DNA from: an uncultured Bacteroidales bacterium
Lineage (GTDB): Bacteria; Bacteroidota; Bacteroidia; Bacteroidales; UBA932
Direction: 5' to 3'
DNA length: 64,000 nt
Assembly (NCBI GenBank): GCA_900318445.1
Contig: ONKO01000004.1
Coordinates: 62,001-126,000 of the forward strand
Shown: piece by piece, positions 40,561 through 54,655 of the stretch
How positions within the stretch are numbered: the first letter of the stretch is position 1
Layout of the letters: each line of letters begins with the position of its first letter
Position numbers and translations under genes: made by a program
Notes under the pieces: generated by a model
The model's database searches: none
What the model was told of the DNA's origin: nothing
The model's input: the letters and a program-made list of their open reading frames with translations, nothing else

Positions 40561-41570
40561 TGGACATGAAAAACAGAATCACAGGGATGGGCCTCGCCCT
40601 TCTTCTCATGGCTTCCTGCACGAAGGAGGCACCGCTGGAGGAAGGTGTGGTCCGCTTTACCACCACGGTCGCTCCCTTTGACGGAGCAACCAAGACCGAC
40701 CTGTCCGGCCGGGCCTTTGCCGTGGGGGACCGCATGAAGCTCAAAATCGTATGCCCCTTCGACGACCGCACCCAGTTTGGAGAGACTACCTATGGCCACA
40801 GCGCCGATGCGTTCTGGCTTTTCAAGTGGAGCGGAACCGACTGGAGCGTCCTTACTGCCGCCGACAAGGTGGACGTGGAAGGGGATTACCGCTACTCCGC
40901 CGCCCCCAACCTGTATGAGCGGTACCTGGCCCAGCAGACTCCGTATGTGTTTACGGCGTCTTCTTGGAGCGAGAACGTTGTGTTTGTCTCCGGCGGGAGC
41001 CGCTATTCCCAGTACAACTATGTTTTCGAGGCCGACCAGTCCACCGAAAAGAATTACCTGAAGTCCGACCTCCTGTGGGCCCAGTCCTACATGCAGACGG
41101 GCTCCTACAATGTGCATCTTTCCTTCGACCATGTCATGGCCTGCCTTCGCCTGAGTGTCGCGGGGGTGTCGGGAAGTGCTGTGGTTACGCTGGAAGGCAT
41201 GCCCGACATTGACCAGCGGGAGGTGGTGGTGGGAGACTACTATGCCGCCCGCAGCAAGGTGAACGCACGTTTCGGCTATAAGGAAAAGTGCAGCTGCCCG
41301 CTGGAAGACAACGGGAAGGTGCTGGGCGTAGCGGTGAACAGCGACGCCCAGGGCAAGGCCTATGTGAAGCCGCTCTCCGAGATTCCTTTTACCGGTGTAT
41401 ACACCGCTCACCGCAGCGGAGACTCCTATTATCTGATTGTACCGCCCTCATCGCTGCCCGCCCGCGCCCGCGTCTGGATCCGGGACGGGGAAAAGCGCTA
41501 CAGCTACCTGCTGGAAAGGACGGTCTTTGAACAGGGAAAACTCTATCCCGTGAACATTAGTGCAGAATGA
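40560..41570 (+). CDS. Fimbrillin-like lipoprotein
   Basis: A 336-residue lipoprotein starting at 40560, which overlaps the previous stop (TGATGG); an alternative ATG is 40566. The signal is MKNRITGMGLALLLMASC, lipid Cys20 counted from 40560, with T44-K45 25 residues later. A single module with YNVHLSFDHVMACLRLSV, the conserved F-x-H-x-M/L-x-x strand, and a closing YSYLLERTVFEQGKLYPVNI. It is probably a minor subunit or a partner of the last gene, with which it overlaps by four bases. Confidence 0.68.
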   Translation: MDMKNRITGMGLALLLMASCTKEAPLEEGVVRFTTTVAPFDGATKTDLSGRAFAVGDRMKLKIVCPFDDRTQFGETTYGHSADAFWLFKWSGTDWSVLTAADKVDVEGDYRYSAAPNLYERYLAQQTPYVFTASSWSENVVFVSGGSRYSQYNYVFEADQSTEKNYLKSDLLWAQSYMQTGSYNVHLSFDHVMACLRLSVAGVSGSAVVTLEGMPDIDQREVVVGDYYAARSKVNARFGYKEKCSCPLEDNGKVLGVAVNSDAQGKAYVKPLSEIPFTGVYTAHRSGDSYYLIVPPSSLPARARVWIRDGEKRYSYLLERTVFEQGKLYPVNISAE

Positions 41571-43519
41571 AGCGTCTGACTTATATCATCTTGCTGGCCC
41601 TCACCGCCTGTTCGGTGAAGGAAGCGGCTCCCGCTCTCCGGCCAGAGCTGCGGGGCATCCGTGCCTCGATTGAAGGCGGCGAGCCCGATACCCGCGCTAC
41701 CGTGACCAAACTGGCCGATTATGTGGGCCGGAGCAAGTTCCGGGGCGGGGACAGGGCCATCTTTACCAACATCCGCCGTACGGAGTATCCCATTGCGGAA
41801 TTCACCTATCCCGGGACGGAAAACTATGAGGGAGTCACCTTCGTGGCGGGGGACGGCGGCGGCTGGACGCGCGGGGAGGGCGACGGCGCTCCCGAGCGCG
41901 TGTACTGGACCGATGCCGTGAGCCCGCACACCTTCGTGGCCTACAGCATTCCGCAGGATGCTTCCTTTGACTGGACCCGGGAGCAGGAGATGCTTTACTC
42001 CTACTATGTGGGTACGCTGGGAGACCCTTCGGAGAGTGGAGAGATTGTGTTTGACACGGCAGAGGCGCTGGAAAAGGAAGATCTCCTCATCTGCCACGAC
42101 ACCGGCGTGCGGGCCGAGCCCGGCGGAAGCGTGGCCCTGGTGAAGTTCGCCCATGCCCTTGCCAGCGTACGCGTGGTGGTGAACATCAACGGATTCTCTG
42201 CCAGCTCGTCGGCGGTGGACAACCAGACCGTGGTGTCGGACATGCGCCTTCTCCACCAGCCCACCCGTTATAAGTGGATGGAGTCCAGCGCTGCCGTCCA
42301 GCCTTACGGCGACGAGGATTCCCGGAGAGATCTGCTGCTGTGGATTCCGAACGGCTCCGGCGTGGGTTCGAGCCAGGCCCGGACCTTTACCTTCTACGGC
42401 ATTACGGCTCCCCAGCCCATGGATTATCTGACGACGCTCTCCGGTGAAAACGCCCGGTACCGGAAGACGCAGCTGAGCTTTGACGTCACCTATCCCGATC
42501 CCCTGAATCCCCAGCTGCTGAAAACGTGCACCTATACGGCCTCTCTCCAGGATGTCTCCTTCGAGTCTGGCTACAATACCACCATCAACATTACGCTTAA
42601 CCACCGGGACGAGCAGATGGTGGTGGGCGTGGACTTCGAGGACTGGGAGTTTGTGTCCACCCCCGACCAGAGCCAGCTCAAGAAAAACTCGACTTTCCTT
42701 CACGATACTTCCCGCAGCAGCGTGACCATCGCAACCGATACGGAAGCTACCGAGGATGATGCCACCTGGCTCTATTTCCAGGAAGGCCATCTCCAGGATA
42801 TATACGGCCATGACGGCTCCCGGGAGCATCCTTTCCAGATTTCCACGGCCGGACAGTTCCTCTCTTTTGCCTATGAAGTAAAGGACGGCCGCTCTTTCGG
42901 GGGACAGTATGTGGCGCTGGATGCAGACCTTACCTTCGAGGTTCCCTGGATTGGGGTGGGCGATGCCTCACATCCGTTCAAGGGGACTTTCCTTGGCGGC
43001 ATGCGCTATCTCTGCAGCGTAAAGGGCAGCCCTCTCTTCGGAAATCTGGCTGCCGGTTCCCGTCTGGAACAGCTGCAGGTGCTGGCAGGTGGTACGGTGG
43101 ACGGACGGGGTGTTTTGACAGATTCCGGCGAAGGAGTCATCTGCGCCTGTGTCGTGGATGGCGACGTGACGCTTGGCGGCAGCAATGCCGGTGCCCTGGT
43201 GGGCACCAATTCGGGTGTCATCCTGGCCAGTTACCATACGGGAACTACCTCCGGAGCGGCGCCTGTGGGAGGCCTCGTCGGCACCAACAGCGGCACCCTG
43301 GTGGGCTGTTACCAGGCCGGGAAAGTGACGGGAGAGAGGATTGCTGCTTCTAGCACCGGCGTAGTGGAGGCTTGTCTCTATACCTCGGAGTCCATGACGC
43401 GCCCTTCCTTTACCGAGACGCTCAACAGCGGAATCGCTTCCTGGTGCGCCAGCCACTCCGGTTACGACGTTTACGTTTACGTGCACCAGCCGGCCGGTTA
43501 TCCCCATTTGAGCGAATAA
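41567..43519 (+). CDS. Fimbrillin-like lipoprotein with GLUG repeats, last gene of the fimbrial locus
   Basis: A 650-residue lipoprotein (MKRLTYIILLALTAC, lipid Cys15; T42-R43-A44). The fimbrillin-like module includes VALVKFAHALASVRVVVNI and closes MVVGVDFEDWEFV near residue 365. The C-terminal part has two clear GLUG repeats from about residue 542 (GALVGTNSGVILASYHTG and GGLVGTNSGTLVGCYQAG), preceded by an FKGTFLGGMRYL turn. GLUG repeats occur in bacterial surface adhesins. It ends the 22-kb co-directional run; the next gene has its own promoter. Confidence 0.72.
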   Translation: MKRLTYIILLALTACSVKEAAPALRPELRGIRASIEGGEPDTRATVTKLADYVGRSKFRGGDRAIFTNIRRTEYPIAEFTYPGTENYEGVTFVAGDGGGWTRGEGDGAPERVYWTDAVSPHTFVAYSIPQDASFDWTREQEMLYSYYVGTLGDPSESGEIVFDTAEALEKEDLLICHDTGVRAEPGGSVALVKFAHALASVRVVVNINGFSASSSAVDNQTVVSDMRLLHQPTRYKWMESSAAVQPYGDEDSRRDLLLWIPNGSGVGSSQARTFTFYGITAPQPMDYLTTLSGENARYRKTQLSFDVTYPDPLNPQLLKTCTYTASLQDVSFESGYNTTINITLNHRDEQMVVGVDFEDWEFVSTPDQSQLKKNSTFLHDTSRSSVTIATDTEATEDDATWLYFQEGHLQDIYGHDGSREHPFQISTAGQFLSFAYEVKDGRSFGGQYVALDADLTFEVPWIGVGDASHPFKGTFLGGMRYLCSVKGSPLFGNLAAGSRLEQLQVLAGGTVDGRGVLTDSGEGVICACVVDGDVTLGGSNAGALVGTNSGVILASYHTGTTSGAAPVGGLVGTNSGTLVGCYQAGKVTGERIAASSTGVVEACLYTSESMTRPSFTETLNSGIASWCASHSGYDVYVYVHQPAGYPHLSE

Positions 43520-43615: not shown

Positions 43616-44746
43616 ATGAAAAACCGTAAAGCTATTATCATTCTCTCCTCGGCCGTTGTCATTGCCGCCGTCGGATTCATTGTGTCCCCCCTCGTAGACT
43701 GGAAGGTTGACAGCGAAAACGCAAGCGGCGACATTGGCAAGACGTCCCGTTTCTCCCGCAAGACTTCCGGCGAAAGCCTCTCCAACATGGAGGAACTCAT
43801 GCGTAGTGACGAGGCCTACAAGAACAGCATCGTCGCTTCCTATTATGTGATGCAGACCCGCGCCAACCAGTTTGCTTCGCTCGTGGATATGTCCAACGAG
43901 GTGGCTTCCGACATTCCGGAGTATGCTTCCGTCCTGGAGGATATGAACAAGGCCTATGTTACGGTGAACAATGTGTGTGCCTCCCTGGCCCGCTCCGGCG
44001 CCGACATCAACACTGCGCTGGGTGGCGAGTCCTGCCCGGAACTGGCACAGAATACCATCAATGCATCGCTGGCCTATGTGGCCCTGCAGAAGCAGAATGA
44101 GCTGGCCAATCGCTTTATCGACATCACCGACAAGTATGCCGCTGCGAACAAGTGCGAGGACCGTCTCCTTTTTGTGCGCGACCAGTGGGTGGACTATCAG
44201 CGCATGACCGCCGCTCTCGAAGGTGACGAAAAGGCTGCCGGCAAGCTGACAGACAAGGGATATCTGCTGGATTCTCAGAAGAGCGTCTCTACCCTTGGCA
44301 GTTTCAATGCCTGTGAGCAGATGACACTCATGAACAGTGCCAACGTGGCCAGAGTCTTCTATATGAATACCCAGGTGAACGAGGCTATTCCCGCGGCTGA
44401 GCTTCGTGCCGCCGTGGATGCAAATATGATCTTCGCCAACAACCTCCAGGAAAACGTTCAGGAAAACGTCCTGGGACTGCTGGTTGTTGCCAATGCCGAG
44501 AAGATCCTGCCCCCGATGATGAATGCAAACAACCTGGAAGGCATCACGTCCGAGGCGCTGTCCCGCGTCGTCGTCCTGGCCAATCAGGACATGGTTCAAG
44601 GTGCTTTTGAGTTGTTCTCGGCAGCCCTGGCCGCCAGACCGATCGTCACTTCTGACGTAGTCGTTGCCAGCGGATTGATTTGCTCGCAGGTGAATAGCGT
44701 CATTGAGGGAACGTCCCTCGGCGAAGTGTGCAAGATGATCTGGTAG
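43616..44746 (+). CDS. Membrane-anchored helical protein of unknown function
   Basis: A 376-residue protein that was not recognised as a member of any family. One hydrophobic N-terminal segment (residues about 6-27, AIIILSSAVVIAAVGFIV) has no clear cleavage site or lipobox, so it may be a signal anchor. The rest is Ala/Glu/Asn-rich and predicted by eye to be helical, without repeats. Six cysteines, all after the anchor (NNVCAS, GESCPEL, NKCEDR, NACEQM, LICSQV, EVCKMI), suggest up to three disulfides and so a periplasmic location. It has its own promoter and terminator directly downstream of the fimbrial operon and upstream of the peptidase/PrsW/AraC operon. A link to either is possible but unproven. 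Confidence 0.65.
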   Translation: MKNRKAIIILSSAVVIAAVGFIVSPLVDWKVDSENASGDIGKTSRFSRKTSGESLSNMEELMRSDEAYKNSIVASYYVMQTRANQFASLVDMSNEVASDIPEYASVLEDMNKAYVTVNNVCASLARSGADINTALGGESCPELAQNTINASLAYVALQKQNELANRFIDITDKYAAANKCEDRLLFVRDQWVDYQRMTAALEGDEKAAGKLTDKGYLLDSQKSVSTLGSFNACEQMTLMNSANVARVFYMNTQVNEAIPAAELRAAVDANMIFANNLQENVQENVLGLLVVANAEKILPPMMNANNLEGITSEALSRVVVLANQDMVQGAFELFSAALAARPIVTSDVVVASGLICSQVNSVIEGTSLGEVCKMIW

Positions 44747-44824: not shown

Positions 44825-47806
44825 ATGCGTATCAAATTCTTAACCTTCGTTTTGCTTCTCCTTTCCCTGACGTCCCGGGGGCAGACGTATTATCAGTACA
44901 AGACGGATGATGTCCGTCTGGTTTTTTTTGACAAAAACCTCTCGCGTTACATTCCCCATATGATACGCATGTATGAGAACGGAACGGCGCTCCATAGGCA
45001 AATCTGGACCACCGATTCCGTCTATGTGCCGGAGCCTACCCTGGTTCTCCTTACGGACTGGGAAGACGATGGCAACGGCGGTGCAACCCCGCTTCCGCGC
45101 TCACTTATCCAGGTGGGCATGGCCCCGCTCAATATGTCCTACTACATCAATCCGGCCGGGGAACGCTACCGGCAGCTTTTCTGCCATGAGTATACGCACA
45201 TTGTGATGACGGACAAGTACAACCGGAAGGACCTGGGCTGGCGGCGTTTCTTCGGATCCAAGGTGAGCGTGGACAGCTCCCATCCCATAACGGCCCTGTG
45301 GAGTTACATGAGCGTTCCGCGCTGGTATGCGCCCCGCTGGTACCACGAGGGTATTGCGTGCTTCATGGAAACCTGGCTGGGCGGCGGCGTAGGACGCGCC
45401 CTGGGCGGTTACGACGAAATGTACTTCCGCAGCATCATTGACGGAGGAGAAAAGCTCTTCTCCGTGGTGGGTCTGGAGACGGAAGGCTCTACCATGGACT
45501 TCCAGGTGGGCGCCAACGCCTACCTCTACGGCACCCGCTTCGTAAACTACCTCACCAAGGAGTACGGATACGACAACCTCATCCGGTTCTATAACCGCAC
45601 GGCCGACAGCCGCATCTTCTTTGGCAACCAGTTCAAGAAGGTATACGGGCAGTCTCTCCGCAAGGTGTGGAACGACTGGAAGGAGGACGAAAGAAAGCAC
45701 CAGGAAGAGAATCTGGCCGCCATCCGGGCGTTCCCGCTCACAAAGACGCATCCCCTCACCCCTGAGCCCCTGGGCTCCGTCTCGCCGTTTGTCTATAATC
45801 CGGAGACGGGAAAAGCCTATGCCGCCATGAACGCCCCGGGGAGTTTTCCGCACCTTCTGGAGCTGGACCTTCGTACCGGTAAGCAGCGCAAGCTCACGGA
45901 TTTGAATGGTATCCAACTGTATAATCCGGCCTTCGTAGCGCTGGACCGCAATGCGGGACGCCTGATTTACACCGTGAACAACGCCCGCATGAGAGGCCTG
46001 GAGGTGTACGACCTTCACCGGAAGAAGGTGGTGACAAGGAAAAAGTTCCAGCGCATAAACAATATCGTGTATGACAATGCCTCCGACCGGCTCTACGGCC
46101 TCTTTTCCAACGGCGGCACCCAGTCCATCGTCCGCTTGGACCGGAATCTGGAGAACCCGGAGGTCATTTATGCTTTTCCCTTTGGCGTAAGCGTCTTCGA
46201 CCTTGATGTGAGCCATGACGGAAAGTACCTTTCGCTCACCCGCCAGGGAGACAACGGCGAGCATACGCTCATCCTTTTCAACCTGGAAGAACTCTCGCAG
46301 GCCATTTTCAATCCCGTGGAACTTCTCACCTTTGAGGATGCCAACCTGGGACAGTTCCGTTTCTCGCTGGACGATAAGTACCTTATTGGCAGTTCCTACT
46401 ATACCGGCGTCTCCAACCTCTGGCAAATCCAGCTGGAAACCCGCAAGGCAGAGATGGTGTCCAACACGGACATCGGCCTGTTCGCTCCCCTTGAGATTGC
46501 TCCCGGGGAAATCCTGGCCCTCCAGTTCGAGCGTGACGGCCTGCGGCCCGTGACGCTCGCCCGCGAGGTGGTGGAAGATGCGAATGCCGTGAAGCTCTAT
46601 GGCCAGAAGACGTATGAGAATAACTCGGAGGCCCTGGAGCAGGTGGGCCTTCTGAAAAAGCCGCTTCCCAAGGTGAAGTTCGGGGATGTCTACCATGCCA
46701 TCACGTCTTACAGCCCCTTGAAGGAAATGCGTTTTGCCGGTGCCTATCCCACCCTTTCCGGTTTCAAGGATGCCCTGGCCTGGAACCGTGTGACTCCGGT
46801 CCTCGGTTACCGCATCTTCTTCAGCGACCCGGTGGGGCTCAGCACCCTCAAGCTGGGTGTGGGCATTTCGCCCTGGAGCAGCAATGCCCTGAAGAACAAG
46901 TTCCACGCAGACCTCGAGTGGAAGTATTTCTTCTGGACGTTCAAGGCGGCCTGGAACCCTACCAGCTTCTATGACCTTGCGGGCCCTCTCCGCACCAGCC
47001 GCAAGGGTTACATGGTATCCCTTGCCTACAACTTCAACAGTTCCATTACGGCTCCTTATACCAAGGCGTGGGGTTTCTCCGTGGGCGCCTACGGAGACAT
47101 GGACGCCCTGCCGCTGTACCAGGAGATCGAGGTGAAGGACATCCGCTCCATGCAGACGGTTTCCCTTTACGGCCGTCTTTCCAAACTGCAGGCTTCCCTT
47201 GGAGGCATAACCGCCGAGAAGGGGTTCAGCCTGAGTGCCCAGGGCTATGGCTATCTGGCCGGAGGACGGTTCTACCCTTCGGTAGAGGCTACGGGGGACT
47301 TCGGCTTCCTCCTTCCCATAGACCGCAACAACTCTTTCTGGCTGCGCACGGCTGCCGGCCATAACTTCGGAGATCCTTCCACCATCTTTGGCAATACCTA
47401 TCTGGGCGGTTTCCGCAACAATCGCGTGGACAACCGCAGTGCGTTCCAGTACCGAACCTCCCTGGCCATGCCGGGTGCGGGCATCGATGCCATCAAGGCC
47501 CACTCGTATGCCAAGGCGACGGCGGAGCTCAATTTCCGCCCCATCCGTCTCAATGACTTCGGCGCCCTGGCCTGCTATCCCACCTGGATCCAGTGCTCGC
47601 TGTTTGGAACGGGCCTCTCGGCCTGGAATCCCGGGGAACCGCATTCCATGTACTACAGTACCGGCGTCCAGGTGTCAACGGAAATTGTCTTTCTCAATTA
47701 TCTCAAGACCACGCTTTCGCTCGGGTATGCCCATCTGTTCGCCCCGGAGGGATTCCCCGGAGGCCGTCACGGTAACGAAATCATGATTTCCCTCAAGCTG
47801 CTGTAA
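44825..47806 (+). CDS. Exported zinc metallopeptidase (MA-like) with beta-propeller and C-terminal barrel
   Basis: The product has 993 residues. ATG 44825 gives the signal MRIKFLTFVLLLLSLTSRGQ; no other start fits. The N-terminal domain (about 20-280) has a gluzincin site: H121-E-Y-T-H125 and the third ligand in HEGIA at H174-E175, the arrangement of the MA-like peptidase family. Residues about 300-590 look like a TolB/WD40-type propeller (YNPETGKAYAAM, SHDGKYLSLTRQGDN, FSLDDKYLIGSSYYTGVSNLW). The last 390 residues alternate as amphipathic strands (GLSTLKLGVGISPW, LRTAAGHNFGDP, FLNYLKTTLSLGYAHLFAP) and look like an outer-membrane barrel, although the chain ends in Leu. A protease tethered in the outer membrane is inferred. 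Its stop codon overlaps the PrsW start by one base. Confidence 0.78.
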   Translation: MRIKFLTFVLLLLSLTSRGQTYYQYKTDDVRLVFFDKNLSRYIPHMIRMYENGTALHRQIWTTDSVYVPEPTLVLLTDWEDDGNGGATPLPRSLIQVGMAPLNMSYYINPAGERYRQLFCHEYTHIVMTDKYNRKDLGWRRFFGSKVSVDSSHPITALWSYMSVPRWYAPRWYHEGIACFMETWLGGGVGRALGGYDEMYFRSIIDGGEKLFSVVGLETEGSTMDFQVGANAYLYGTRFVNYLTKEYGYDNLIRFYNRTADSRIFFGNQFKKVYGQSLRKVWNDWKEDERKHQEENLAAIRAFPLTKTHPLTPEPLGSVSPFVYNPETGKAYAAMNAPGSFPHLLELDLRTGKQRKLTDLNGIQLYNPAFVALDRNAGRLIYTVNNARMRGLEVYDLHRKKVVTRKKFQRINNIVYDNASDRLYGLFSNGGTQSIVRLDRNLENPEVIYAFPFGVSVFDLDVSHDGKYLSLTRQGDNGEHTLILFNLEELSQAIFNPVELLTFEDANLGQFRFSLDDKYLIGSSYYTGVSNLWQIQLETRKAEMVSNTDIGLFAPLEIAPGEILALQFERDGLRPVTLAREVVEDANAVKLYGQKTYENNSEALEQVGLLKKPLPKVKFGDVYHAITSYSPLKEMRFAGAYPTLSGFKDALAWNRVTPVLGYRIFFSDPVGLSTLKLGVGISPWSSNALKNKFHADLEWKYFFWTFKAAWNPTSFYDLAGPLRTSRKGYMVSLAYNFNSSITAPYTKAWGFSVGAYGDMDALPLYQEIEVKDIRSMQTVSLYGRLSKLQASLGGITAEKGFSLSAQGYGYLAGGRFYPSVEATGDFGFLLPIDRNNSFWLRTAAGHNFGDPSTIFGNTYLGGFRNNRVDNRSAFQYRTSLAMPGAGIDAIKAHSYAKATAELNFRPIRLNDFGALACYPTWIQCSLFGTGLSAWNPGEPHSMYYSTGVQVSTEIVFLNYLKTTLSLGYAHLFAPEGFPGGRHGNEIMISLKLL

Positions 47807-48843
47807 TGTCCTTCGCCGCTGCCCTTTTTCCCGTTGTCGTCTACATCGCGCTGGTTTATGTGCTGGATAACTTTGCGCTCGTGAGCGTGAAGCGTCTCCT
47901 TGCGCTGGTGCTGTGCGGGATGGTATCGGCCCTCATTTCATTCGGCCTTTTCCAGCTTACGGGAAAGGTGGTCCCGGAGCGCGTGTCGGTTTTTCTGGAC
48001 CCGCTCGTGGAGGAGCTGGTGAAGGCTGTTCCGCTCGTGTATCTTGCCAGCCGCAAGAAAGTGGCCTTTTTCATTGACAGTGTCATCTGCGGGGCGGCCG
48101 TGGGAGGCGGATTCTCCATCCTGGAGAATGTATTCTACCTGGTTATGGGAGAGCCTCTTTCCATGGGCACCGCCTTGTTCCGGGGCCTGGAAGTGGCGCT
48201 TATCCACATGGGCTGCAGCGCCGTTGTCGCCGCCGCTCTCATGCTTGCCGTCCGGCTCATCGAGCGGGGCCGCTCCCACCTGGCGGTAAAAACGAGGGAC
48301 ATTGTGGTTGCGGCGTTTCTGCTGGCATCGGCCCCGGTGGTGCACGTATTCCATAACTCCTTCCATTTCCCTCCGCTCATCCAGTATGCCGTTGTCTTCG
48401 GCGCCCTGGCCGCCCTGCTGCTCTGGACCTACCATTACGACTCCGGCATGATCCACCGCTGGCTGGATAAGGGAATTGACAAGCAAATCGCCCTTCTTAC
48501 GTCCATCCGCGAGGGTAACCTGGAACATACCCGGACCGGAGCGTTCCTGCTGTCGGTCCGGGACGCTTTCCCTCCCGAAGTTTTCTTTGATATCATCTGC
48601 TTTGTGCAGCTGCATATGGAACTCACGCTGGCGGCCCGCAGCCGGTTCATGCTGCACGAGGCCGGGCTGGCGTTTCCCCTGGAACCGGAGCGTGCGCAGG
48701 AACTCCTGTCGCAGTATTCCGAGTACGTGACGCTGGAAAAGCGGCTCGGGAGAACGGCCCGCATGGCGGTGGCTCCCGTCGTGAAATTCTATCCCTCGGA
48801 CCGGAAGGCACTGGATGATTTACTGTCAGAATGCAAGCGATGA
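47806..48843 (+). CDS. PrsW-family intramembrane protease
   Basis: A 345-residue multi-pass membrane protein. The PrsW signatures are in order: DPLVEELVKA with E69-E70, GGFSILENVFY with E107-N108, a histidine in ALIHMGCSA (H134), and HVFHNSFH (H180, H183, H187). These are the putative metal or catalytic residues of this CPBP-related membrane protease group, known from anti-sigma-factor cleavage in Bacillus. The last 120 residues are cytosolic and have no close counterpart known to me. It starts inside the stop codon of the metallopeptidase gene and its own stop overlaps the start of a membrane AraC regulator (ATGA), so the three are likely made together. Confidence 0.85.
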   Translation: MSFAAALFPVVVYIALVYVLDNFALVSVKRLLALVLCGMVSALISFGLFQLTGKVVPERVSVFLDPLVEELVKAVPLVYLASRKKVAFFIDSVICGAAVGGGFSILENVFYLVMGEPLSMGTALFRGLEVALIHMGCSAVVAAALMLAVRLIERGRSHLAVKTRDIVVAAFLLASAPVVHVFHNSFHFPPLIQYAVVFGALAALLLWTYHYDSGMIHRWLDKGIDKQIALLTSIREGNLEHTRTGAFLLSVRDAFPPEVFFDIICFVQLHMELTLAARSRFMLHEAGLAFPLEPERAQELLSQYSEYVTLEKRLGRTARMAVAPVVKFYPSDRKALDDLLSECKR

Positions 48844-49910
48844 ATTACTCTTCCCCTGAACTTTTGCTGAGTCTGTCCCTGACCGTTTATCTCACGGTCT
48901 GCGCGATGATGGCTATGGTGCGGCCGGAGCAGGACCGGTCCCTCCCCGGCTGGCGTGCGCTGGTCTTTTGCTCGCTGTCTTATCTCCTGCTTGCCCCGGT
49001 GCTGCTCCGGCCCTCGGATCCGGATGGCGTCCTGCAGCTGAGGCTCATGCTCCTCATGGGTTCGCCCTGTTTCTGCTCGGTCCTTATTCTCAGCTACTTC
49101 GGCCGTATCCTCAAGGCAAGCTGGTGGCACAGGCCCACGCTCATTATGTGGGTAAGCTATGCCGTCATGTGCCTGGTGGCGCTTGTGACAACGCTCCTTC
49201 CCGGTGTTCAGATGCAGGGGCTTTTCCGCAGCCTTTATTTCCTCGTGGCCGCCCTCCTTACCGCAGGATATCTCATCGCGCTGGTGTTCACCCTCATCAT
49301 GGTCATCCACCCGCTGAGCCGTTTCACGGAGGGGAACTTTTCCAATCCCGATGACGTCCCCGACCGCTATGCCAAGTCGCTCATTTACTTCCCGGTCCTT
49401 CATCTTATCATGAGCTGGAGCGTTACGTTCAACGGAAGCTATCCGGTGATGGCGGTGGGCCTCCTGGTGCTCTCGGTGCTTCAGGCCATCATTCTCAGGG
49501 GCGCCCTTTCTCCGCTCCGGACGGTGGAGGCGGAACGCCTGGAAGAGGAACTGTCGGCTCCTGTCCCCGTGACCCTTCCCGAAGAGCCGGATCTCCCGCA
49601 GGAGAGAAAGTCGGAGATCCTCTCCCTCATCCGGAAGGAAGTGGAGGAGGGGAAGGCGTACCTGGACAGCCACTTTACGCTGGGGAAACTGTCACAGGCC
49701 TGCGGGTGCAACCGTACCTATGTATCGGCCATCCTGAACGAGGAGTACGGCGGTTTCTTCCACTACGTGAACCGCTGCCGGCTGGCCCATGCCGATGCCT
49801 TCCTGGCGGAGCATCCCCGTGCCGATATGGACCAGGTGGCCCTGGAGGCAGGGTTCAACAACCGCCAGTCTTATTACAATGCGAGAAAACGCGTAAGGGA
49901 AGCTTCCTAG
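48840..49910 (+). CDS. Multi-pass membrane AraC-family transcription regulator
   Basis: A 356-residue protein if started at ATG 48840, which overlaps the prsW stop as ATGA; ATG 48831 would add three residues. Residues about 5-220 contain six or so hydrophobic segments (LLLSLSLTVYLTVCAMMAMV, ALVFCSLSYLLLAPVLL, WVSYAVMCLVALVTTLL and others). A charged linker leads to a C-terminal AraC DNA-binding domain (about 265-350): FTLGKLSQACGCNRTYVSAILNEEYGG and MDQVALEAGFNNRQSYYNARK. Membrane-bound AraC proteins of this kind are known in Bacteroidota, mostly without a known signal. Its partner protease gene suggests release by cleavage. It converges on hutI with a four-base overlap. Confidence 0.85.
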   Translation: MNYSSPELLLSLSLTVYLTVCAMMAMVRPEQDRSLPGWRALVFCSLSYLLLAPVLLRPSDPDGVLQLRLMLLMGSPCFCSVLILSYFGRILKASWWHRPTLIMWVSYAVMCLVALVTTLLPGVQMQGLFRSLYFLVAALLTAGYLIALVFTLIMVIHPLSRFTEGNFSNPDDVPDRYAKSLIYFPVLHLIMSWSVTFNGSYPVMAVGLLVLSVLQAIILRGALSPLRTVEAERLEEELSAPVPVTLPEEPDLPQERKSEILSLIRKEVEEGKAYLDSHFTLGKLSQACGCNRTYVSAILNEEYGGFFHYVNRCRLAHADAFLAEHPRADMDQVALEAGFNNRQSYYNARKRVREAS

Positions 49911-51097
49911 AAAAATACTTTCCGGATAAACGGAGTCTCATACTGGTAGGCCAGTTTAGTAAGGTCCCAGCCGGGTTCCGTGAGGATGAGGGCGGCCTTC
50001 TTGCCGCGTGTGACGGAGCCGTACCGGTCCGATACCCCCATGGCGTAGGCGCTGTTGAGGGTGACGGCGTTGAAGGCTTCAATGGGCGTGAGCCGCATCT
50101 TGATGCAGCCCTGGGCCATCACAAAGCGCATGTCTCCGCTGGGAGAAGAGCCCGGATTGTAGTCGCTGGCCAGGGCAACGCCCAGTCCGGCTTTCACGAA
50201 CTCGCGGGCGCGGCCGTAGGGAAGCCCCAGGAAGAAGGAAGAGCCGGGCAGCATGGTGGGCATGGTCCCGGTGCCCTTCAGTACTTCCATCTGGGCCTCT
50301 GTCGTCCGTTCCAGGTGGTCTACGGAGAGGGCGCCGTGCTGCACGCCCACCTCCACGCCGCCGCTCACGGCCAGTTCGTTGGCGTGGATCTTGGCCGGCA
50401 GGGAAGTGGCTTCCAGGATGCGGGCGGTGTCCTCCGGGGTAAAGAAGCCTTCGTCGCAGAAGACGTCGATGAAGTCGGCATACTTCTGCGCCTCAGGAAT
50501 GAGGCCGATGACCATATCTACATAGTCTTCATGTGAATAGCCCCGTCCTACGGCATGGGCGCCCAGGAAAGTGCTTTTGACGGCGGCCGGGATGCTCCTT
50601 TTGATGCGGTCAATGACCCGGAGCATTTTCATCTCTCCCTCGGGGCACAGGCCGTAACCGCTCTTGATTTCGAGGGCTACGGTGCCTTTGTCCATCACTT
50701 CCTGTACGCGCACCATGGACTGGCGGAAGAGCTCCTCTTCCGAGGTGCGGCCCAGAAGGTCGGCCGAATTGAGGATTCCGCCGCCCCGCGCCGCTATCTC
50801 CTCATAGGACAGGCCGTTGATCTTGTCCAGAAACTCGCCGTCCCGGCTGCCTGCATAGACCAGGTGCGTGTGGCTGTCGCAGAAGCCGGGAATGACCATG
50901 CCGCCCTGCGCGTCGAGAGATTCTTCGCTTTGCTCAGGATGACAGGATCCCGTTCCGAAGTCGGTGATGCGGCCGTCCTCGATGGAGATCCAGGCGTTTT
51001 CCAGCATGCCTGTGCAGCCCTGTGCGGCGCCTTCCACCCGAAGGACGTCCTCCGGCTGGATGCCCGCGAGGAGGCCTATGTTATAGATAAGATTCAT
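49907..51097 (-). CDS. hutI: Imidazolonepropionase
   Basis: A 396-residue amidohydrolase that opens imidazolonepropionate to formiminoglutamate, the third step of histidine breakdown. Metal ligands H76 and H78 lie in CDSHTHLVYAGSR; other sites are EIKSGYGL, GAHAV, KIHANEL and the ASDYNPG motif with the last Asp ligand. Residues 51-61 read SCHPEQSEESL, which is not part of the family but the translation of a short dispersed element (50917-50944) inserted in frame in a loop between the first strands and the HxH motif. The enzyme otherwise looks intact. It overlaps hutH by 17 bases and is the last gene of the operon. Confidence 0.94.
   Translation of the reverse strand: MNLIYNIGLLAGIQPEDVLRVEGAAQGCTGMLENAWISIEDGRITDFGTGSCHPEQSEESLDAQGGMVIPGFCDSHTHLVYAGSRDGEFLDKINGLSYEEIAARGGGILNSADLLGRTSEEELFRQSMVRVQEVMDKGTVALEIKSGYGLCPEGEMKMLRVIDRIKRSIPAAVKSTFLGAHAVGRGYSHEDYVDMVIGLIPEAQKYADFIDVFCDEGFFTPEDTARILEATSLPAKIHANELAVSGGVEVGVQHGALSVDHLERTTEAQMEVLKGTGTMPTMLPGSSFFLGLPYGRAREFVKAGLGVALASDYNPGSSPSGDMRFVMAQGCIKMRLTPIEAFNAVTLNSAYAMGVSDRYGSVTRGKKAALILTEPGWDLTKLAYQYETPFIRKVFF
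50917..50944 (-). repeat. Dispersed 28-base element inside hutI
   Basis: On the minus strand it begins TGTCATCCTGAGC and ends GAAGAATCTC. It is 24/28 identical to the copy at 62098-62125. In the hutI frame it is read as CHPEQSEES. Peptides of the CHPE(R/Q)SE(E/G)S type are familiar translations of such elements in many bacterial genomes. Confidence 0.88.
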
Positions 51098-52565
51098 TCC
51101 GGATGAATTCGACGGATTTCATGATGTAAGGGTGCATGTAGGTGTCCGTGTCAATGAACGGCACTTCCTTGCGGTAGTCGGTGAAGATCTGCTCCAACTT
51201 CGGGGAACTCTTGAGCGGCCGGCGAAACTCCAGCGCCTGCGCGGCGTTGAACAGTTCGATGGCCAGCACGGTTTCTACGTTGTCCACAATCCGCACCAGT
51301 TTGGTGGCGCTGTTGGAACCCATGGAGACGTGGTCTTCCTGGCCCTGGGAAGAGGGAATGGAGTCGCAGGAAGCCGGCCAGCACAGGCCCTTGTTCTGGG
51401 AGACGATGGAGGCCGCCGTGTACTGGGGAATCATGAATCCGCTGTTGAGGCCGGGAGAAGCCACCAGGTACTTGGGCAGGCCGCGGAGACCGTCGATGAG
51501 CTGGAACGTGCGGCGCTCGGAGATGCTGGCGAGTTCGCTCATCGCGATGGCCAGGGAGTCCATGGGAATGGCGATGGGCTCTCCGTGGAAGTTGCCGGCC
51601 GATATCACCATGTCTTCGTCGGGGAAGATGTTGGGGTTGTCGGTGGCCGAGTTGATCTCGTTCTCAATGACGGACTTCACGTAGGCGATGTTGTCCTTCA
51701 CGGCGCCGTGCACCTGCGGGATGCAGCGGAAGCTGTACGGGTCCTGCACATGCACCTTGGGCCGGTTGATGAGCTCGCTGCCCTCCAGGATTTCCATGAA
51801 CTTTTTACCCGTGAGGATTTGTCCGGTGTGGGGGCGCAGGAGGTGAGTGAGGGGCAGGAAGGGCTCGATGCGGCCGTCGTAGGCATCCAGCGACATGGCG
51901 CCGATGATGTCGGCCCAGGCGCTGAGCCGGATGCTCTTGAGGATGCTCCAGATGGCGTGGGCGCTCATAAACTGCGTGCCGTTGAGGAGCGCCAGGCCCT
52001 CCTTGGACTGCAGCCGGATGGGCTCCCAGCCCAGCTCTTTCCAGACATCGGCCGAGGGACGGACCTCTCCCTTATACAGCACTTCTCCCATGCCGATAAG
52101 CGGGAGGCACAGATGGGCCAGGGGCGCGAGGTCTCCCGATGCGCCCAGGGAGCCCTGCTGGTACACGATGGGCAGCACGTCTTCGTTGAACATGTCCACG
52201 AGGCGCTGAACGGTGAGAAGCTGGGCGCCGGAATGGCCGTAGGAGAGGTTCTGCACCTTGAGCAGCAGCATCAGTTTCACAATCTCCGGACGCACTCTCT
52301 CTCCGGTCCCGCAGGCATGGGACATGACCAGGTTGTGCTGCAGCTGGCTCAGGTCTTCCTTGGGAATGGTTACGTTGTAGAGGGAACCGAAGCCGGTGGT
52401 GACGCCGTAGACGGGCCGCCCGATGTCCTCCATCTTGCGGTCCAGGTACTCGCGGCATTTGACGATGGCTTCTGTCGACTCCTTCGAAAGGGTGAGTTTT
52501 TCTTTGTTGTCCAGGATTTCCTTCACTCGCTCCAGCGAGAGGTGTTCACTTGATATACTGTGCAT
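51081..52565 (-). CDS. hutH: Histidine ammonia-lyase
   Basis: A 494-residue enzyme that removes ammonia from histidine to give urocanate. The self-made MIO cofactor comes from A142-S143-G144 in GSLGASGDLAPLAHL. The YGVTTGFG loop near residue 53, the GTQFMSAHA segment, the QDPYSFRCIPQVHG motif and the C-terminal SQGQEDHVSMGSNSA segment are all present. Its start overlaps the hutU stop by one base and its end overlaps hutI. Confidence 0.97.
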   Translation of the reverse strand: MHSISSEHLSLERVKEILDNKEKLTLSKESTEAIVKCREYLDRKMEDIGRPVYGVTTGFGSLYNVTIPKEDLSQLQHNLVMSHACGTGERVRPEIVKLMLLLKVQNLSYGHSGAQLLTVQRLVDMFNEDVLPIVYQQGSLGASGDLAPLAHLCLPLIGMGEVLYKGEVRPSADVWKELGWEPIRLQSKEGLALLNGTQFMSAHAIWSILKSIRLSAWADIIGAMSLDAYDGRIEPFLPLTHLLRPHTGQILTGKKFMEILEGSELINRPKVHVQDPYSFRCIPQVHGAVKDNIAYVKSVIENEINSATDNPNIFPDEDMVISAGNFHGEPIAIPMDSLAIAMSELASISERRTFQLIDGLRGLPKYLVASPGLNSGFMIPQYTAASIVSQNKGLCWPASCDSIPSSQGQEDHVSMGSNSATKLVRIVDNVETVLAIELFNAAQALEFRRPLKSSPKLEQIFTDYRKEVPFIDTDTYMHPYIMKSVEFIRNESYL

Positions 52566-54655
52566 TATTGTAAAGCTTTTTGAATGATCTTTTCATCGGC
52601 CGCGTTGGGAAGGGTAACCTTGAGGCCGGGAGTTCTGGCCATTTCACGTTCGATGGCAAAGCGGGCGGCGCTGCTACGGGCCCAGCTGCGGCGGGCAATG
52701 CCGTTGTTCACGTCCCAGAAGAGCATCTCACGGATGTGGCGGTCACTGTCCTCGGAACCGTCGATCACCATGCCGAAGCCGCCGTTGATGACTTCTCCCC
52801 AGCCCACGCCGCCGCCGTTGTGGATGCTGACCCACGTGGCGCCGCGGAAGCCGTCACCAATGACGTTCTGCACGGCCATATCGGCGGTGAAACGGCTTCC
52901 ATCATAGATGTTGGAGGTTTCGCGGAAGGGGGAGTCCGTTCCGGAGACATCGTGGTGGTCGCGGCCCAGCACAATGGGGGCCGATATCTCGCCCTTCCGG
53001 ATGGCCTCGTTGAAGGCAAGGGCTATCTTCGTGCGGCCTTCGCAGTCGGCATAGAGGATACGGGCCTGAGACCCCACCACCAGGTGGTTGCGGCCGGCTT
53101 CCTCAATCCAGTGAATGTTGTCGCGCATCTGGCCGGCAATCTCAGCGGGGGAAGATGCCGCTATTTCGGAGAGCACCTTCACGGCTATTTCGTCGGTCTT
53201 CTGAAGGTCCTCGGGCTTTTCGCTCATGCACACCCAGCGGAACGGGCCAAAGCCATAGTCAAAATACATGGGACCCATGATGTCCTGCACGTAGGAAGGA
53301 TAGCGGAAACTGCCGTCTGCCTTGAGGACATCGGCTCCGGCGCGGGAGCTCTCCAGGAGGAAAGCGTTGCCGTAGTCAAAGAAGTACATGCCGTCTGCGG
53401 CAAGCTGGTTGATGGCTGCGACATGCCGTCTGAGCGAGGCCTGCACGGCCTCCTTGAAGCGCTCAGGCTCTTTGGCCATCATGCTTTTGGACTCCTCCAG
53501 GCTATAGCCCACAGGGTAGTAGCCGCCGGCCCAGGGATTGTGGAGGGACGTCTGGTCACTGCCAAGGTCCACGTGGATGTGTTCTGCCGCCAGGCGTTCC
53601 CACAGGTCTACGACATTGCCTACGTAGGCGAGCGAGACGGGCTTACGGGCAGCCACGGCCTCCCGGATACGGGGGATCAGTTCGTCCAGGTCTCGATGCA
53701 GCTCATCCACCCAGCCCTGTTCGTAGCGTTTTTCGGCCGCCTTGGGATTGATCTCTGCCGTCACGCTCACAACGCCCGCAATGTTGCCCGCCTTGGGCTG
53801 GGCTCCGCTCATGCCGCCCAGGCCCGCAGTCACAAACAGCAGTGCGGCTGTAGCCTCTCGGTGCTGCGTCCCGGGGGCATCGTCCTTTTTTATTGCCCCC
53901 GGGGCGCAGCACTGGGAGGCGCGGGGGAAACTGGTCCGTGACAGTACCTTCCTGGCTGCATTCATCACCGTAATGGTGGTACCGTGCACGATGCCCTGCG
54001 GCCCAATATACATGTAGCTGCCGGCGGTCATCTGGCCGTACTGGCTCACACCCAGGGCGTTGAAGCGCTCCCAGTCGTCGGGCTTGGAGTAGTTGGGAAT
54101 GACCATGCCGTTAGTCACGATTACGCGCGGAGCATCCTTGTGGCTGGGAAAGAGCCCCAGCGGATGGCCGCTGTACATGACCAGGGTCTGCTCGTCCGTC
54201 ATGGTGGCGAGATACTGCATGGTAAGCCGGTACTGGGCCCAGTTCTGGAAGATGGCTCCGTTTCCGCCGTAGATGATGAGCTCGTGCGGATGCTGGGCCA
54301 CCCGCTCGTCCAGGTTGTTCTGGATCATGGCCATGATGGCGGCCGCCTGGCGGGACCGGGCCGGATACTCGTCAATGGGCCGGGCATAGATCTTATAGGA
54401 AGGCCTGTAGCGGTACATGTAGATGCGGCCATACTCCCTGAGCTCTGCCGCAAATTCCGGTGCCAGGCTCTCATGCAGTGCTTCCGGGAAGTACCGCAGC
54501 GCGTTCTTGAGCGCCAGCACCTTCTCCTTGGCGCTCAGGATATCCTTGCGCCGGGGTGCATGGTTAATCTCCGTATCGTAGGGTTTGGCTTCCGGCAGCG
54601 TTTCCGGAATGCCTTCAAGAATTTCCTTCTCAAAATCCCGTTGTGTGTAACTCAT
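52565..54655 (-). CDS. hutU: Urocanate hydratase with an in-frame palindromic insertion
   Basis: A 696-residue enzyme (the long form of the family), converting urocanate to imidazolonepropionate with tightly bound NAD. Conserved parts include ELIIYGGNGAIFQNWAQ, VITNG-type VIVTNGMVIPNYS, TAGLGGMSGAQPKAG, and the C-terminal GATWVSIHNGGGVGWGEV. Between NAARKV (residue 237) and LFVTAGLGG (from 273) is an extra stretch of about 25-30 residues (ASQCCAPGAIKKDDAPGTQH) with low family character. It is encoded by a 68-base inverted repeat (53853-53920). The frame is kept, so the protein may still fold with a surface loop. It follows ftcd after 86 bases and overlaps hutH by one base. Confidence 0.93.
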   Translation of the reverse strand: MSYTQRDFEKEILEGIPETLPEAKPYDTEINHAPRRKDILSAKEKVLALKNALRYFPEALHESLAPEFAAELREYGRIYMYRYRPSYKIYARPIDEYPARSRQAAAIMAMIQNNLDERVAQHPHELIIYGGNGAIFQNWAQYRLTMQYLATMTDEQTLVMYSGHPLGLFPSHKDAPRVIVTNGMVIPNYSKPDDWERFNALGVSQYGQMTAGSYMYIGPQGIVHGTTITVMNAARKVLSRTSFPRASQCCAPGAIKKDDAPGTQHREATAALLFVTAGLGGMSGAQPKAGNIAGVVSVTAEINPKAAEKRYEQGWVDELHRDLDELIPRIREAVAARKPVSLAYVGNVVDLWERLAAEHIHVDLGSDQTSLHNPWAGGYYPVGYSLEESKSMMAKEPERFKEAVQASLRRHVAAINQLAADGMYFFDYGNAFLLESSRAGADVLKADGSFRYPSYVQDIMGPMYFDYGFGPFRWVCMSEKPEDLQKTDEIAVKVLSEIAASSPAEIAGQMRDNIHWIEEAGRNHLVVGSQARILYADCEGRTKIALAFNEAIRKGEISAPIVLGRDHHDVSGTDSPFRETSNIYDGSRFTADMAVQNVIGDGFRGATWVSIHNGGGVGWGEVINGGFGMVIDGSEDSDRHIREMLFWDVNNGIARRSWARSSAARFAIEREMARTPGLKVTLPNAADEKIIQKALQ
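53853..53920. repeat. Palindromic element inside hutU
   Basis: A 27-base arm (53853-53879) pairs with 53894-53920 at 24 of 27 positions, with a 14-base loop. The inner 19-base arms, from GTGCTGCG to GGGGGCA, differ at one position. It codes in frame for roughly hutU residues 246-268, which break up a normally compact region. Confidence 0.88.

Follow-up and report, generated by a model that had tools for sequence, protein, structure and literature searches.

The 64,000-nucleotide stretch analysed here (hereafter referred to as the window; contig ONKO01000004.1, positions 62,001 to 126,000, of an uncultured Bacteroidales bacterium) carries three tightly coupled genes, which encode an exported peptidase with a propeller and a barrel (A), a PrsW-type intramembrane protease (B) and a membrane protein with an AraC-type DNA-binding domain (C). 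A sequence-only reading of this locus had arranged the three products into a chain, in which an outer signal leads to cleavage by B and release of the AraC domain of C. What, then, are the targets of B, and does C belong to the conserved system? We found that the conserved unit is P-A-B, not A-B-C, where P is a membrane-tethered protein encoded upstream of A and left out of that reading. We consider it somewhat probable that P-A-B supplies the sensor and the protease of an envelope-sensing module of Bacteroidota that is akin to sigma-W/RsiW/PrsW. A regulated-proteolysis module is likely, and its best-supported targets are P and an anti-sigma-like protein (R), not the AraC protein.

Relatives of the locus were collected by scanning genome contigs for B, with one genome per species (84,980 species), which gave 51 loci; by their record titles, many are from ruminant stomach, Bacteroidales or Prevotella. 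A abutted B in all of the 49 relatives in which the stretch before B was available, with gaps of -1 base in 42, -4 in 5, 0 in 1 and +5 in 1. Of the 42 loci in which the stretch before A was available, 41 have P ahead of A (39 by tblastn and 2 partial ones at contig edges; a six-frame profile scan again gave 41), the sole locus without it being L043 (L and G numbers denote loci and genomes, respectively). C followed B in 14 of the 51 loci, at gaps of -4 to 63 bases, and some of the other 37 lie on contigs that end shortly past B. A-B-C was rejected as the conserved unit, since C trails B in just 14 of the 51 loci. The overlaps of 1 base (A/B) and 4 bases (B/C) in the window were described correctly; the three-gene order, when checked in other genomes, held for A and B, which are neighbours as a rule, and did not hold for A-B-C.

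The co-occurrence of A and B extends beyond these loci. The B profile matched in 101 of 393 Bacteroidales genomes (E ≤ 0.001). A long form of B, in which the PrsW part is followed by a conserved C-terminal domain of about 130 amino acids, was present in 24 of them, and 77 more had short or weak PrsW matches only; the short matches end near residue 235 or sooner and do not cover the C-terminal domain. A was found in 18 of the 393 genomes, including the window's own (G000), after four weak partial matches out of 22 (G293, G295, G267 and G128) had been dropped, and all 18 also carry long B (hypergeometric 2.6e-26, uncorrected for kinship). From a phylum-wide sample of 345 genomes we took the 13 loci, other than the window's own, whose A scored over 980 bits, excluding G937, in which an A fragment at a contig end is directly followed by B, and leaving aside matches below 75 bits. 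B adjoined A in 11 of the 13, once with a short PrsW instead. Matches to A at about 527–658 bits were interpreted as paralogues that form a subfamily of their own and lack long B (seven members, L174–L180); three of these loci (L174, L177 and L179) have next to A a short exported protein with SNSQL-type repeats and, nearby, a gene that looks kinase-like by eye. Within the window's genus, long B was seen only in G000 and G004 among the genomes searched, which hints at horizontal movement. Another genome, G567, has two unlike long B genes (L145 and L140), one with P-A-B-C and the other without a nearby A or P.

The assignment of B as a PrsW-type protease was confirmed by a match to Pfam PF13367 (PrsW) of 54.8 bits, above the gathering score of 23.5, and by the residues E69, E70, K73, E107, N108, H134 and H180, which are invariant in 21 of 21 aligned sequences, window included. 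They comprise the EExxK motif and further motif residues of the PrsW family, among them those taken to be catalytic. A search of the PDB with the B sequence gave a single irrelevant match (E 0.49).

The reading of A as a zinc peptidase joined to a propeller and a barrel was likewise upheld, although its Pfam matches are below cutoff (Peptidase_MA_2, PF13485, 19.5 bits against 32.4; Omp85_2, 16.6 against 23.1). The HExxH residues (H123, E124 and H127) and E177 are the same in all 23 aligned sequences, that of the window among them, and presumably form the zinc-site set of Peptidase MA (HExxH plus a downstream Glu). A structure model of A, with a mean pLDDT (predicted local distance difference test) of 76.9 and some parts of the peptidase region below 50, shows a propeller, a barrel of about 16 strands and a helical region that resembles a peptidase. 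Its top fold match in the PDB was TolB, covering the propeller only; neither the barrel nor the peptidase was matched among the best 50 matches, and no sequence relatives of A or C were found in the PDB. The barrel is presumed to lie in the outer membrane. As to the start of A, the aligned relatives begin at ATG 44825, and the list of open reading frames (ORFs) offers TTG 44819, two codons earlier.

P gave no fold match at E < 0.001. It has a variable tail: tandem repeats occur in 28 of 38 P genes, as compared with 0 of 41 A, 1 of 50 B and 0 of 14 C genes, and none are present in the window's own P. The repeats (L030–L076) sit toward the 3′ end of the gene and their best period is always a multiple of three, so that the P tail grows and shrinks in frame. 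Matches of the repeat tails to Pfam and NCBIfam models (STI1, HRP, TPR_END, a RatA-type model and others) were dismissed as low-complexity noise.

When larger stretches were examined, a sigma-like gene (S) and a gene for the single-pass, anti-sigma-like R were often found to adjoin P, A and B elsewhere in Bacteroidota, in the order S-R-P-A-B or B-S-R-P-A. In 11 of the 18 A-bearing Bacteroidales genomes, counting cases split between contigs, S and R were linked to A, P or B. The former order is present in G283, G087, G350, G262 and G191, and in G064 split over two contigs; the latter is present in G215 and G323, and G208 and G360 are consistent with it across contig ends. G297 has B-S-R and, elsewhere, B-P-A. 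The other 7 of the 18 (G000, G236, G115, G303, G024, G106 and G387) showed no S-R pair next to the module. In G323, four tandem P genes lie between R and A (L098, 8333–13555). Among the 13 high-scoring A loci of the phylum-wide sample, S was present at 10; of the remaining three, contig ends truncate L161 and L167, and L172 is without S. The one S that was scored (L091) contains Sigma70_r2 and r4_2, and its best NCBIfam match was SigW (133.3 bits, cutoff 209). Four R proteins scanned gave no Pfam match above cutoff, and the R of L091 matched an NCBIfam anti-sigma model weakly (17.2 of 100 bits). These genes thus sit with an extracytoplasmic function (ECF) sigma factor and an anti-sigma-like R in many distant relatives, which supports the proposal of a regulated-proteolysis module as such; its extension to the AraC protein as the target is not supported.

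In the window's own family, 7 of 26 B-bearing genomes (25 fetched and the window's own; G569, of 27 genomes with B, was left out) have the order B-S-R-P-A, with R matching weakly (39–51 bits); in one of these, L125, the contig stops before A. In genus g11, a more distant sigma-like gene (69 bits) occurs in two loci, beside B on the opposite strand in L128 and about 2.4 kb past A in L087. A search of 31 genomes for R gave matches of at least 100 bits in 14, always adjoining B and/or P or one gene away, and matches of any kind at E ≤ 0.01 in 17; no match was obtained in G000, G004, G236 or six rumen-type genomes. The cytoplasmic part of R is missing in two of the 14. At L113 and L114, R consists of 188 amino acids with a transmembrane (TM) segment and an outer domain, without a cytoplasmic part, and a 110-amino-acid gene lies between R and B. 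Scanning of every open stretch in six frames revealed neither S nor R in the 64-kb window. In the 51 rumen-type loci it brought up a single detached S-like gene (L047), which had been missed among ORFs picked by length, and no R.

P and R are tied by natural fusions and by a short motif. Between S and A, loci L165, L166, L169 and L171 encode R-P single chains of 503–539 amino acids. In these, the R cytoplasmic profile recognises the N-terminus (E 3.2e-11 to 8.8e-6), and the P juxtamembrane profile recognises the part next to the membrane (E 1.8e-9 to 6.7e-6). A fifth fusion (L170, 6738–8021) was identified by eye. Repeats of 9 residues are present in the four scored fusions and in several P proteins. 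The motif G[TS][IMFLV] occurs within 30 residues past the TM segment in 21 of 21 R proteins as compared with 7 of the 193 single-TM ORFs that were taken from these loci as controls; in the R of L095 it was found off the aligned site, which reads GA. A wider form, G[TSAND][IMFLV], occurs in 38 of 38 rumen-type P proteins (window included) as compared with 27 of 193 controls, and the narrow form in 31 of 42 P proteins from genome stretches, two further P proteins having had no TM segment called. The matches mostly begin 9–17 residues past the hydropathy window. These counts are descriptive, the rows being related to each other.

The description of C as an AraC domain behind six or so membrane segments needs a small correction. 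C scored 32.2 bits against HTH_18, just under the cutoff of 33.6 (E 1.3e-7), and an alignment of 14 C proteins, window included, backs its AraC-type helix-turn-helix (HTH); hydropathy averaged over the same 14 proteins reveals seven hydrophobic segments, not six. The start codon is ATG 48840. By eye, C is without a juxtamembrane motif of the R/P type. In a tree built from 56 B proteins, C is confined to the rumen-type group; the label is clustered and needs five changes, two of which are forced by firmly supported branches. In a sample of 199 genomes of the window's family, long B is present in 27 and C-family proteins in 8 (E ≤ 1e-20), and the two adjoin in 3 of the 27 B-bearing genomes, window included. 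Relatives of C occur away from B, one being a 44% identical paralogue in the window's genome. Conversely, two loci with P-A-B whose records do not label them as metagenome-assembled, L040 (Prevotella communis E15-14) and L078 (Prevotella sp. P6B1), have no C after B. C seems to have joined the operon late, within part of the rumen-type lineage, and may act as a substitute output or be carried along as a passenger. A different replacement regulator was sought in the C-negative loci and discarded: the next genes look unrelated (TrpB-like, ABC transporter, peptidase; names by eye), in a list whose ORFs were chosen by length, so that a longer antisense ORF may mask a gene. In G236, of the window's family, a LytTR regulator with hydrophobic segments lies directly upstream of B in a locus of the order B-P-A (L087, 12866–13648).

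The coordinates of the window's genes and their parts are collected in the table below. Upstream of P (41567–43519) lies a fimbrillin-like gene (Mfa_like_1), and downstream of C, on the opposite strand (49907–54655), lie genes that by eye resemble those for histidine utilisation.

Table. Features of the P-A-B-C stretch, in window coordinates
Feature	Position	Strand	Remark
P, membrane-tethered protein, 376 amino acids	43616..44746	+	found ahead of A in relatives
P, N-terminal TM helix	about 43622-43693	+	
P, juxtamembrane motif SGDIGK	about 43724-43741	+	
P, helical bundle	about 43784-44410	+	
P, low-confidence tail	about 44423-44743	+	
A, exported peptidase-propeller-barrel	44825..47806	+	signal peptide, gluzincin-like peptidase, TolB-like propeller, ~16-strand barrel
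A, peptidase motif HEYTH	about 45185-45199	+	EGIA further on
B, PrsW-type intramembrane protease	47806..48843	+	Pfam profile and motif residues
B, motif EELVK	48010-48024	+	
B, E107-N108	48124-48129	+	H134 and H180 also kept
C, seven hydrophobic segments, then AraC-type HTH	48840..49910	+	looks like a lineage-specific addition
C, AraC-type HTH	about 49689-49895	+	

How might these parts work together? We propose that A is embedded in the outer membrane, its peptidase and TolB-like propeller lying on the periplasmic side, and that P is anchored in the inner membrane, its helical domain and variable, often repetitive tail extending outward. A probably binds or cuts the P tail. In the fuller module, an altered contact between A and P would let B cleave R, or the fused R-P chain, close to the shared motif, and this cleavage would free the sigma factor S, by analogy with RsiW. 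The copy in the window appears to be a pared-down version of the module. As no R turned up in the genome of the window, P is left as the tethered partner that bears the motif, and would be the most likely remaining target of B; C, as a seven-TM receptor-regulator, may report the envelope state uncut. A bolder version, which we consider somewhat less likely than not, is that of an undescribed trans-envelope apparatus, in which the barrel, propeller and peptidase of A read the repeat tail of P (itself sometimes the anti-sigma factor) and thereby license PrsW to free a SigW-like sigma factor, this output having been dropped in the rumen-type lineage and partly replaced by C.

Several observations weigh against P-A-B as an envelope-sensing module of this type. 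B scored 20.4 bits against the Bacillus PrsW equivalog (NCBIfam NF033739), far under the cutoff of 225. Full-length homology of R and P was set aside, the profiles of the two aligning weakly (Prob 14%, E 0.002); only the fusions and the short motif link them. P is lipoprotein-like in six genomes that have S and R (L091–L095 and L112), with a Cys that ends the hydrophobic stretch and that we read as a lipobox; the lipid-anchored look would leave B no TM segment of P to cut there. The S-like gene of L047 (939–1535, 98.9 bits) lies on the opposite strand about 2 kb before P and has no R with it. The 7 of 18 genomes and the rumen-type loci without an adjacent S-R pair indicate that S-R signalling is not the whole function. 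The genome G000 is 88% complete, so that the absence of R from it is uncertain and may reflect an assembly gap.

Release of the AraC domain from C by B within the membrane would fit the 4-base overlap of the two genes in the window, the retention of C close behind B in the 14 relatives and the clustering of the C label on the B tree. We nevertheless regard it as very improbable: 37 of the 51 close relatives have no C behind B (the contig soon ending in a few of them), the two adjoin in just 3 of the 27 B-bearing genomes of the family sample, relatives of C exist without B, and C is a seven-TM protein without an R/P-type motif, in contrast to the known PrsW target RsiW, described as single-pass in PMC5358783. 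The final step of the chain as originally drawn is thus not borne out. That C is instead a free-standing, seven-TM one-component regulator of P-A-B or of neighbouring genes, which stays in the membrane and shares with B only its transcription, is a reasonable alternative to which we give a little less than even credence. It is consistent with the family members apart from B, including the one in the same genome, and with the seven segments, which with the N-terminus outside would put the HTH in the cytoplasm, whereas the 15 B-adjacent copies, window included, suggest some common function.

P-A-B might also be an envelope processing or quality-control machine, in which P is matured or removed by B and A, with S-R as an extra of some lineages. 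P, A and B are indeed kept without an adjacent S-R pair in the rumen-type loci, in most of genus g11 and in G106 and G303; the P tails are repetitive and fast-changing, and A bears a peptidase. However, the R-P fusions link P directly to the anti-sigma domain, and B-S-R is seen without A or P in G112 (18 kb) and in G253 (R near a contig end). We consider such a machine unlikely, and prefer the sensor and protease part of an envelope-sensing module.

The closest known system is sigma-W/RsiW/PrsW of Bacillus subtilis, in which RsiW is cut in turn by PrsW and RasP; the same paper (PMC5358783) names the RseA/DegS/RseP sigma-E pathway beside it. The likeness lies in a SigW-like ECF sigma factor (one S scored), the single-pass, anti-sigma-like R and the PrsW-family B with its motif residues. 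The Bacteroidota module differs in adding the outer-membrane-type peptidase-propeller-barrel and the tethered partner, and in having sigma, anti-sigma and PrsW in one cluster; moreover, no Pfam domain scored above cutoff in the four R proteins scanned, and the genome of the window yielded no R. In the RseA/DegS/RseP sigma-E pathway, the envelope state is signalled by cutting an anti-sigma factor. Here a PrsW type replaces DegS, and the module itself encodes an outer-membrane part. TolB-Pal-TolA pairs the TolB propeller with an inner-membrane-tethered helical partner. The propeller of A is TolB-like in fold and P is tethered and helical; unlike TolB, the propeller of A lies within one chain with a peptidase and a barrel.

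In PMC3482391, PrsW domains are thought to process tethered proteins in polymorphic-toxin systems, and PrsW-toxin fusions are placed chiefly in Gram-positive bacteria. A PrsW domain alongside a tethered protein recalls these systems; unlike them, the module has no toxin domain in the Pfam matches of the proteins scanned, and the polymorphic-toxin reading was dropped because the window proteins scanned show none above cutoff. In openly licensed literature, among the matches listed, we found no described PrsW signalling pathway in Bacteroidota and no account of an outer-membrane-type peptidase, a tethered partner or an R-P fusion; among papers on AraC proteins, membrane-bound transcription factors and intramembrane proteolysis, none was on Bacteroidota by title. 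The module looks like a widespread and apparently undescribed signalling kit of Bacteroidota. A cluster that encodes sigma factor, anti-sigma factor, PrsW and an outer-membrane-type peptidase offers ready candidate parts for envelope sensing, the natural R-P fusions provide an internal control, and the shared motif provides a target for mutation. Together, these make envelope sensing in gut and rumen bacteria directly testable.

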